From contig NZ_JAVDYB010000001.1 in assembly GCF_031458235.1 (NCBI RefSeq), forward strand, positions 2,749,001 to 2,813,000: 64,000 nt of DNA, written 5' to 3'. Source of the stretch: Catenuloplanes atrovinosus (lineage in GTDB: Bacteria; Actinomycetota; Actinomycetes; Mycobacteriales; Micromonosporaceae). The notes beneath the pieces were generated by a model. The model saw only the letters and a list, made by a program, of their open reading frames with translations. It was not told where the DNA came from and did no database searches. Below are positions 20,925 through 48,681 of the stretch, in pieces. Position numbers and translations under genes: made by a program. Each line of letters starts with the position of its first letter. Position 1 is the first letter of the stretch.

Positions 20925-21781
20925 GCGGTCGCCTCCTGGGCCGGCGGGGTGCGCACACCCTGCGCGATCATCACGGTCAGCAGCACCACCAGGGCCACCT
21001 CCAGCCGGTACGCACCGCCGCCGTACCCCGCCACGACGGTCTGCGCCACCCCGAGCAGCAATCCACCGGCCAGCGCCGCGCCCGGCCGGGTCAGCCCGCC
21101 GAGCACCGCCGCCGCGAAGCCGTTGACGATCAGCGCGACGTCGCTGTCGAACGTCACCTGCTGCACCGGCGTGGTGAGCACGCCGGCCAGCCCGCCCAGC
21201 GCGCCGCCGAGCGCGAAGGACAGCAGCCCCATGCGGCGCACGTCGATCCCGACCACCCGGGCGGCGTACGGGTTCGACGCGCACGCCGACAGCGCCTTGC
21301 CGAGATCGGTGCGGGCGAAGAAGACGGCCAGCGCCGCGAAGACCGGCCCGGTGACCGCGACGATCAGCAGGTAGTGGGTGGGCACCCGGGCACCGGCGAT
21401 CTCCACCGCGCCGCCGAGCCCGGGGAAGGACCGCGGCTGGTCGCCCCAGATCAGGATCTCCACGGCGTACGCGAGCAGGCCCAGCCCGAGCGTGACGATC
21501 AGCGAGGCGCCCGGCGCGGTGCCGGGACGGCCGATCGCCGCGACGCCGACCAGCAGGCCCGCTCCCGCCCCCGCCACCACCCCGAGCGTCTCCGCGGCGC
21601 CGTGCGGGAGTCCGGCGGACAACAGCGACGCGGTCAGCATCGCGGCCAGCACGGCGAACCCGCCCTGCGCGAAGTCGACCACCCGGGTCACCCGGTAGGT
21701 CACCACCAGGCCGCTGCCGACCAGCGCGAACCCGGCGCCGATGCCGAGCCCGGTGACCAGGTAGCCGATCAGCTCCGTCAC
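20921..21781 (-). CDS. livH: Branched-chain-type ABC transporter permease LivH
   Basis: A 286-residue permease with about eight membrane segments and the LivH pattern GSGLVVTYRVTRVVDFAQGG, LGKALSACASNPYAARVVGI and GFAAAVLGG. The GTG start overlaps the livF stop by GTGA, and its own stop overlaps livM. Same complex as LivM, LivF and LivG. Confidence 0.92.
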   Translation of the reverse strand: MTELIGYLVTGLGIGAGFALVGSGLVVTYRVTRVVDFAQGGFAVLAAMLTASLLSAGLPHGAAETLGVVAGAGAGLLVGVAAIGRPGTAPGASLIVTLGLGLLAYAVEILIWGDQPRSFPGLGGAVEIAGARVPTHYLLIVAVTGPVFAALAVFFARTDLGKALSACASNPYAARVVGIDVRRMGLLSFALGGALGGLAGVLTTPVQQVTFDSDVALIVNGFAAAVLGGLTRPGAALAGGLLLGVAQTVVAGYGGGAYRLEVALVVLLTVMIAQGVRTPPAQEATA

Positions 21782-22446
21782 GGCTCCACCGCCACGTGCC
21801 CGCCCAGGTAGGCGGCCACCACGCGCGGGTCCGCCGCCAGCCCGGCGGCGTCTCCGGAGAGCACGACGCGGCCCGCCTCCAGCACGTAGCCGCGGTCGCA
21901 GAGGTCCAGCGCGAGGCGGGCGTTCTGCTCGATCAGCAGCAGCGCCACGCGCAGCGTGCGCAGGTGACCGACGATCTCCTCGACCACGAGCGGGGCCAGC
22001 CCCAGGCTCAGCTCGTCGATGATCAGTACGTCCGGCCGGGCCATCAGCGCGCGGCCGATCGCCACCAGCTGCTGCTGGCCGCCGGAGAGCGTGCCGGCGC
22101 GCCGCCGCCGCAGCTCGGCCAGGGCCGGGAACAGCCGGTAGATCGCGGTGGTGTCGCGGCCCCGGCGGCCGTTGCGCCAGCCGCCGAGGCGGAGGTTGTC
22201 GTCGACGCTCAGGTCGCCCCACACCTCGCGGCCCTCCGGCACCTGCGCCAGCCGGCCGTGCGCGGTGACCGTGCCGGCGGCCGGCCGGACCAGGCCGGAG
22301 GCCGCACGGACCAGCGTGGTCTTGCCGGCGCCGTTCGCGCCGATCAGCGCGACCCGCTCCCCGGCGGCCACGCTCAGCGAGACGCCGTCCAGCGCGGTCG
22401 CGCCCGCGTACCGCACGGTCAGGTCGCGCACCTCCAGCACGGTCAT
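21778..22446 (-). CDS. livF: Branched-chain-type ABC transporter ATPase LivF
   Basis: A 222-residue ABC ATPase: Walker A GANGAGKT (36-43), signature LSGGQQQ, Walker B VLIIDELSLGLAP, and the switch His replaced by Gln in LLIEQNARLAL, as is usual in LivF. The ATG overlaps by ATGA the stop of the third small reading frame in the tandem repeat that separates it from livG. That repeat also ends in a GGAGGG element just before this start. Confidence 0.92.
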   Translation of the reverse strand: MTVLEVRDLTVRYAGATALDGVSLSVAAGERVALIGANGAGKTTLVRAASGLVRPAAGTVTAHGRLAQVPEGREVWGDLSVDDNLRLGGWRNGRRGRDTTAIYRLFPALAELRRRRAGTLSGGQQQLVAIGRALMARPDVLIIDELSLGLAPLVVEEIVGHLRTLRVALLLIEQNARLALDLCDRGYVLEAGRVVLSGDAAGLAADPRVVAAYLGGHVAVEP

Positions 22447-22520
22447 GCCGGACCGCCCTCCATGCCGCGGTGTCCGTGTGGTCGGCGCTGAGCTGATGAT
22501 TCGTTCGCAGGCTCGCTCAT
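22443..22520 (-). CDS. Small reading frame 3 of the tandem relay (25 aa)
   Basis: Encodes MSEPANESSAQRRPHG followed by HRGMEGGPA. The start overlaps the stop of small frame 2 and the stop overlaps the livF start, both as ATGA. It differs from its sisters at two residues. Its last part holds GGAGGG upstream of the livF ATG. Function unknown; it may be a translation-coupling leader. Confidence 0.6.
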   Translation of the reverse strand: MSEPANESSAQRRPHGHRGMEGGPA

Positions 22521-22666
22521 GCCGGACCGCCCCCTATGCCGCGGTGTCCGTGTGGTCGGCGCTGAGCTGATGATTCGTTCGCAAGCTCACTCATGCCGGA
22601 CCGCCCCCCATGCCGCGGTGTCCGTGTGGTCGGCGCTGAGCCGATGATTCGTTCGCAAGCTCACTC
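22445..22666 (-). repeat. Three tandem 74-bp units between livG and livF
   Basis: Units at 22445-22518, 22519-22592 and 22593-22666 are about 95% identical and exactly 74 bases each. On the minus strand each contains a 25-codon frame from ATG to TGA. Because 26 codons minus the 4-base overlap equals 74, the stop of one unit and the start of the next always form ATGA. A related unit lies at 48601-48681. No inverted repeats or target duplications typical of an insertion sequence were seen. Confidence 0.95.
22517..22594 (-). CDS. Small reading frame 2 of the tandem relay (25 aa)
   Basis: Encodes MSELANESSAQRRPHG followed by HRGIGGGPA. It overlaps both neighbouring small frames by ATGA. It differs from frame 1 by a single residue (Met to Ile) and a synonymous Ser codon. 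Basic, His-containing, without a membrane segment. Function unknown. Confidence 0.6.
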   Translation of the reverse strand: MSELANESSAQRRPHGHRGIGGGPA

Positions 22667-22668
22667 AT
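22591..22668 (-). CDS. Small reading frame 1 of the tandem relay (25 aa)
   Basis: Encodes MSELANESSAQRRPHG followed by HRGMGGGPA. Its ATG overlaps the livG stop and its stop overlaps frame 2. It is the first of three chained frames that carry ribosomes from livG to livF. A purine-rich GGGGGCGG stands near its end, ahead of the next start. Confidence 0.6.
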   Translation of the reverse strand: MSELANESSAQRRPHGHRGMGGGPA

Positions 22669-23438
22669 GCGGCGGCCCGCCCCAGGTAGGCGCCGATCAC
22701 GCCCGGGTCGGCGCGGACCTCGGCCGGGCGGCCGTCGGCGATGACCCGGCCCAGGTCGAGCACGGTGATCCGGTCGGCCAGCCGCATCACGAACGCGACG
22801 TCGTGCTCGACCAGCAGGATGGTGAGCCCCTCGGACCGCAGCCCGGCCACCAGCTCCGCCAGCCGCTCCCGTTCGGCGGCCCGCAGCCCGGAGGCGGGCT
22901 CGTCGAGCAGCAGCAGCCGGGGCCGCCCGCACAGCGCGCGGGCCAGTTGCAGCGCGCGTTGCCGGCCGAGCGGCAGTTCGCGAGCGGGCCGGCCGGCCCA
23001 CTCGGCCAGGCCGGTGCGGGCCAGGCAGTCGGCGGCGCGCTCCCGGATCAGCCGCTCCTGCCGGTGGTGGGCGGGCAGCCGCAGCGCCGCGGCCAGGAAA
23101 CCGGCGCTGGTGGTGGCGTGCGCGCCGACCATCACGTTCTCCAGCGCGGTCAGGTCCGCGAAGATCCGGGCGGCCTGGAACACCACGGCCACCCCGAGCC
23201 CGGCGCGGCGGTGCGGCGGCAGCCGGTCGATGCGCCGGCCGTCCAGCCGTACCGTGCCGGCGTCCGCGGTGAGCTGGCCACCGATCAGCGCGAACAGCGT
23301 GGACTTGCCGGCGCCGTTCGGGCCGATGACCGCGCGCAGCTCACCGGGGGCCACGGTCAGGCCGGCGTCGCGCACGGCGTAGACGCCGCCGAACGCGCGG
23401 GCGAGGCCGGCGACCTCCAGCGTGGCGCCGGCCGTCAT
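22665..23438 (-). CDS. livG: Branched-chain-type ABC transporter ATPase LivG
   Basis: A 257-residue ABC ATPase: Walker A GPNGAGKS, a signature region that reads LPLGRQRALQLA instead of LSGGQ (Gly-rich part altered), Walker B RLLLLDEPASGL and switch His in LLVEHDVAFV. The altered signature is typical of some LivG proteins but the loss of the Ser-Gly-Gly triplet deserves attention. The start overlaps the binding-protein stop as TGATG. Its stop leads into the tandem small frames rather than directly into livF. Confidence 0.9.
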   Translation of the reverse strand: MTAGATLEVAGLARAFGGVYAVRDAGLTVAPGELRAVIGPNGAGKSTLFALIGGQLTADAGTVRLDGRRIDRLPPHRRAGLGVAVVFQAARIFADLTALENVMVGAHATTSAGFLAAALRLPAHHRQERLIRERAADCLARTGLAEWAGRPARELPLGRQRALQLARALCGRPRLLLLDEPASGLRAAERERLAELVAGLRSEGLTILLVEHDVAFVMRLADRITVLDLGRVIADGRPAEVRADPGVIGAYLGRAAA

Positions 23439-48604: not shown

Positions 48605-48681
48605 GCCGGATCTCCGTTCCCGCTGCGGCGTCCATGTGGCCGGCGCTCAGCCGACGATGATGCGCGCGCAAGCTCGCTCAT
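48601..48681 (-). CDS. Dispersed copy of the relay small reading frame (26 aa)
   Basis: Encodes MSELARASSSAERRPHG followed by RRSGNGDPA, clearly related to the frames at 22443-22668. Differences include synonymous changes and one inserted codon (an extra Ser), while the ATG, the RRPHG core, the PA-stop end and the ATGA junction are kept. An in-frame ATG 22 codons further upstream (48747) could extend it to 48 residues. Function unknown. Confidence 0.55.
   Translation of the reverse strand: MSELARASSSAERRPHGRRSGNGDPA

Follow-up and report, generated by a model that had tools for sequence, protein, structure and literature searches.

An array of 74-nt units between livG-like and livF-like genes of Catenuloplanes atrovinosus is probably a MIRU-like insertion element through which translation can pass

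The tandem array that separates a livG-like from a livF-like gene in Catenuloplanes atrovinosus is probably a copy, amplified locally in tandem, of a dispersed, MIRU-like insertion element that is kept transparent to translation. The kind of element is known from mycobacteria as MIRU; the present family seems to be new, as do the two modes by which it would pass a ribosome. The window (the whole stretch of DNA analysed, 64,000 nt) contains, on the minus strand between the two genes, three 74-nt units, each with a 25-codon reading frame, that are chained by ATGA overlaps (Table 1). The ATG of every unit overlaps the preceding stop as ATGA and is preceded by a purine-rich stretch. Tandem Repeats Finder (TRF) reported a period of 74, 3.2 copies, 94% matches and a score of 422, the top of its 32 rows for the window. 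These values and the ORF coordinates bear out the original prediction of three 74-bp, 25-codon units leading from livG to livF through ATGA junctions, and the purine-rich element that it placed ahead of each ATG proved to be Shine-Dalgarno-like by anti-Shine-Dalgarno (anti-SD) pairing. A second, single copy of the element in the window has an ORF that ends in an ATGA overlapping the start of a 99-aa ORF (48604-48305). This copy is the usual unit plus 3 bases, so that the frame is kept.

Table 1. The array, its flanking genes and the second element copy (window positions)
Feature	Position	Strand	Remarks
Upstream gene, LivG-like ABC ATPase, BCA_ABC_TP_C domain	22665..23438	-	Best NCBIfam model LivG, below cut-off
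Unit 1, 74 nt	22595..22668	-	ORF 22591-22668 (25 codons + TGA); ATG overlaps livG-like stop
Unit 2, 74 nt	22521..22594	-	ORF 22517-22594 (25 codons + TGA)
Unit 3, 74 nt	22447..22520	-	ORF 22443-22520 (25 codons + TGA); TGA overlaps livF-like ATG
Downstream gene, LivF-like ABC ATPase	21778..22446	-	Best NCBIfam model LivF, below cut-off
Second, single element copy, 77 nt	48605..48681	-	Sequence-model match 49.5 bits, E 2.7e-14

The possibility that the array is an isolated oddity of the liv operon was ruled out by genome-wide BLAST, pattern and model matches. The 8.9-Mb, single-contig genome holds at least 154 matches to the sequence model of the element (a lower bound, with 150 candidates scored). 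BLAST, with scores for the best 40 of its 116 candidates, gave at least 55 matches. When up to 3 mismatches were allowed, a 32-nt core pattern occurred at 141 places and its reversed control at none, so the array is not a product of chance. For further analysis, 40 loci with flanks were picked by BLAST, containing 42 arrays with 125 units; a second set of 29 further places consisted of 28 among the model matches listed outside the first loci and the second copy in the window. Arrays contain from 1 to 7 units. Core matches were found in 26 of 354 genomes of the family, comprising all five of this genus, two of g39, 18 of g4 and one of g59 (genus labels are inferred: g39 is Amorphoplanes and g4 Micromonospora, and genome G001 is Catenuloplanes japonicus), and one core copy was also present in Pseudonocardia endophytica. 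Across genera, the 5′ core is kept as nucleotides. Two arrays about 3 kb apart, L028 and L039, carry a nearly identical 75-nt fused unit, which suggests local copying; the gene after L028 encodes a TIGR02678/DUF2398 protein and that after L039 an AAA/helicase-like protein.

Element copies lie at ATGA or GTGA starts, mostly where a coding-like upstream frame stops in the overlapping TGA. Because an ORF of at least 80 aa, present upstream of 32 of the 42 arrays, also occurs at 278 of 1074 control sites, we replaced this simple count by a GC3 criterion. A frame was taken as coding-like if it was open over 80 codons and had the highest GC3 of the frames, at a value of at least 0.85. The TGA that overlaps the start of the first unit closes such a frame in 29/42 arrays, compared with 69/1074 other ATGA/GTGA sites in the same loci. 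At the further places, where GC3 alone was used, the best GC3 frame (≥0.85) was at the upstream TGA in 23/29. On the downstream side, following the overlaps or in-frame fusions from unit to unit leads into the best-GC3 frame in 40/42 arrays (L015 being a near tie) and 27/29 further places. Copies that ignore the reading frame or lie away from start codons had been named in advance as a possible refutation and were few: L027 and a partial copy in L035 in the first set, and L236, with its 73-nt unit, and L237 among the further places. Irregular arrays were L015, L042, L013 and L238. A Pfam family was assigned to 34 of the 39 downstream proteins scanned, which are of many kinds, including ribonuclease III, serine hydroxymethyltransferase, acetyl-CoA carboxylase and NADH dehydrogenase chain 6, and have no evident common function. 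The proposal of a modular translation relay is thus supported in that the design appears able to pass ribosomes, judging by the downstream frames and by the Shine-Dalgarno-like stretch kept at re-starts (below); a device specific to liv is not supported, since the downstream genes have many functions. Control of the LivF:LivG ratio, which the original prediction gave as an alternative, would be a hypothetical regulatory role.

Two simpler measures of passage discriminated poorly. A final ORF of 90 codons, observed in 39/42 arrays, was uninformative as a control for the relay, because off-frame ORFs are long in GC-rich DNA (85-99% pass after random changes). The gene's own stop was reached in 41/42 arrays and in 34/34 with Pfam support. 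Here, however, the chains had themselves supplied the gene frames, and 51-99% of randomly changed arrays also pass by this measure. Simulated arrays reached the gene stop in 82% after one insertion, 51% after one deletion and 83% after five substitutions. Because most simulated changed arrays still pass, the passage of a given array is weak evidence, and we therefore relied on GC3 frames and on a neutral-substitution null.

Under this null, in which substitutions were matched to the divergence of each array from the consensus and arrays were taken as independent and as descending directly from one consensus, frame 0 was expected to be open in 27.4 of 36 arrays. It was open in all 36 (those of the 42 with a 74-nt unit bounded by DTGA), and 5 of 50000 simulations did as well. 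The counts of open arrays for frames 1 and 2 were 30 and 17, respectively. The open frames would suit functional small proteins of about 25 aa, a reading that we nevertheless consider very improbable, as the reading frame of the core differs between genera and the codon positions are poorly differentiated. The core also contains some of the rarest codons of the host. Among units with a start, the core lies in frame 0 in 119/119 of those from this genome (77/77), its congeners (32/32) and g39 (10/10), and in frame 2 in 15/15 of those from Micromonospora (10 loci in 8 genomes). Mean entropy differs little by codon position (0.50, 0.52 and 0.67 for codons 2-22), and unit GC at the three positions is 0.73, 0.67 and 0.66, the last compared with 0.96 for GC3 in host genes. 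Near-equal diversity at the codon positions and the other core frame in Micromonospora rule out the peptide as the conserved product, and the pattern MSEL...RRPHG, which the original prediction proposed to search for, is not the feature that is kept. What is conserved seems to be ribosome passage rather than the peptide.

The unit periods fall into two modes. Among 83 internal periods, 42 were 74 nt and 33 were 75 nt, with three of 73, two of 72 and one each of 71, 68 and 64; modulo 3, 44 leave a remainder of 2 (relay), 35 of 0 (in-frame fusion) and four of 1. In 29 of the 33 period-75 steps the following unit has no ATG. Of the 13 arrays involved, ten still end in a stop that overlaps the downstream start and three run on in frame. 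In L037 (3015-6107), four fused units and a xanthine dehydrogenase-like gene form a single open frame, so that the units may be a repeat extension of its N-terminus.

The two modes differ in the stretch ahead of the unit start. Pairing energies were calculated with what we take to be the anti-SD sequence, and 12 other units, including fused units with the ATG kept (L025 and L038), were set apart from the classes compared. Mean pairing was -8.9 kcal/mol at internal ATGA/GTGA re-starts (n = 42), -8.1 at terminal ones (n = 37, a class that leaves out the terminal units of five arrays with no DTGA end) and -3.4 at fused internal units (n = 29), with a background of -3.7. Pairing reached -6 kcal/mol in 38/42, 31/37 and 5/29, respectively, and in 20% of the background. 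The contrast was significant when evaluated per array (p = 6e-5 and 9e-5), indicating that the Shine-Dalgarno-like stretch is kept ahead of ATGA re-starts and falls to background level in units joined by in-frame fusion. In a paired comparison within nine fused arrays, the terminal stretch was the stronger in six and the weaker in L022, L028 and L039. When units were delimited without regard to frame, lengths of 2 mod 3 were found in 21/33 congener, 20/22 other-genus and 59/79 own units, and many of the remainder appeared by eye to be boundaries misplaced at an internal or upstream GTGA. In the delimitation used for the frame comparison between genera, in which a length of 2 mod 3 is given by construction and carries no weight, the first stop lies within the DTGA overlap in 60/77 own, 26/32 congener, 10/10 g39 and 14/15 g4 units.

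Comparison with congeners revealed empty sites. Three congeners, G002, G003 and G004, have a livG/livF junction that could be located, in each case a bare ATGA; in G001 the junction was not identified. The first array of L020 is absent from all four congeners, and at its second array three of four have no unit, while the fourth, G001, carries another insert. L024, where the C. atrovinosus genome has six fused units, is a bare junction in G001 and has single open-frame units of 77, 62 and 65 nt in G002, G003 and G004, respectively. This presence and absence fits insertion. Arrays of the length seen in the C. atrovinosus genome were found in none of the congeners at the junctions examined, which speaks against a reading of the arrays as expression dials, in which unit number or rare codons would set the ribosome supply to the downstream gene under selection. 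The variation from 1 to 7 units agrees with such dials, as do five core codons that are rare in 30 host genes (CTT, TCA, GCT, CGA and CCA, each at most 1.2 per 1000), and longer tandem repeats upstream of Mtb-fpg1 are reported to accompany higher mRNA (PMC2734929). Nevertheless, the downstream genes share no evident function and the Micromonospora core, being in another frame, has other codons; we consider dials unlikely.

The nucleotide-level conservation of the 5′ core is left unexplained by transparency to translation, and could reflect a DNA or RNA signal, such as an internal promoter, a structured RNA or a protein site, with the open frame as a by-product of operon location. The mycobacterial senX3-regX3 region with its MIRUs is reported to drive separate regX3 expression (PMC4213456). 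Here, no sigma-70-like promoter or terminator was detected in 22300-22800 and no Rfam match was obtained. A structured RNA with a covarying helix found no support, with two-sided change in 0/5 predicted pairs among 40 sequences and folding no better than shuffles in 4/4 stretches. A signal of this sort would also not explain why fused units have lost their Shine-Dalgarno-like stretch, and we regard it as quite improbable.

The favoured reading, an insertion element kept transparent to translation, could operate as follows. Ribosomes that finish the upstream gene would re-initiate at unit after unit and finally at the downstream gene; with such stepwise re-starts the insert would be transparent to translation and thus tolerated in operons, which may be why the element survives there. 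Units would be amplified by recombination or slippage. With a length change of +1, the relay would become an in-frame fusion, and the internal Shine-Dalgarno-like stretches would then decay. REP-type elements are moved by a Y1 transposase, and we rejected an element of that type, since a search for Y1_Tnp, the only mobility enzyme sought, found it in 0/5 genomes of the genus (positive controls were found in 5/14). A wider view, which is conceivable but on balance doubtful, is that of an actinobacterial family of insertion elements selected for ribosome transit itself. Its core would be read in different frames by genus, its units would pass the ribosome through their length and ends, with ATGA re-starts in units of 2 mod 3 and in-frame fusion in those of 0 mod 3, the Shine-Dalgarno-like stretch would be kept only where a re-start needs it, and the MIRUs of mycobacteria would represent a further branch of this design.

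If the favoured reading is true, MIRU-type elements extend beyond mycobacteria, and the relays, fusions and empty sites, with 1 to 7 units, form a natural series for how far ATGA re-initiation chains in bacteria. This would bear on translational coupling and on the survival of small mobile DNA within operons. Annotation calls for caution, since in these genomes a small protein or an N-terminal extension of the MSELASESSAQRRP type is likely to be element sequence.

For a comparison at the sequence level, mycobacterial units were collected with a search pattern that we take to represent MIRUs; it occurs in 8 of 397 genomes, which belong to a single genus, probably Mycobacterium. Most of the units retrieved have a purine-rich stretch and ATGA at their end. 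No significant similarity to these units was seen for the window unit (1050 of 2000 shuffles were as good), and for a Micromonospora unit 434 of 2000 shuffles were as good. Two 77-nt units of C. japonicus showed a weak likeness (16 and 13 of 2000), and a profile of 77/80-nt units scored one mycobacterial unit at a non-significant E of 6.4. Four C. japonicus loci (L183, L185, L188 and L189) have 77-nt units with GGAGCGAAGCGGAGGAG before the ATGA in the 3′ half, nearer to the mycobacterial MIRU-like units than window units are. In L115 (1500-1632, inferred Mycobacterium), an array with a 51-nt period (0 mod 3) has no ATG, and AGGT replaces ATGA; judged from sequence, it may be a counterpart of the in-frame fused mode.

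The original prediction knew of no described system of this kind, which was wrong. According to a review (PMC12548453), MIRUs seem to be mobile; their insertion at a start codon leaves an ORF of the unit coupled to the gene at -4 nt, and this coupling likely limits their effect on the gene. They are reported as units of 40-100 bp at 41 places in H37Rv (PMC2734929), and units of 77 and 53 bp are described (PMC4213456). Among the entries listed from open-licence literature, queried mostly without a family or genus name, there was no report of such repeats in Micromonosporaceae. Enterobacterial RU elements, compared by description (PMC2759123), are also small dispersed intergenic repeats with reported ORFs, but are MITE-like and of 127, 168 and 103 bp, compared with 74 nt for the window unit. 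The likeness to MIRUs extends further: the window family consists of short dispersed units, single or in tandem, of 74/75 nt and thus within 40-100 bp, located at start codons, where the ORF of the unit is coupled to the gene with a spacing of -4 nt, and with bare junctions in congeners. The MIRU lengths of 77 and 53 bp (PMC4213456), like 74, 77 and 80, are all 2 mod 3. In contrast to MIRUs, the window family resides in Micromonosporaceae and has an in-frame fused 75-nt form in which internal starts and Shine-Dalgarno-like stretches are lost. By analogy, the window element works like a MIRU and has the same design.
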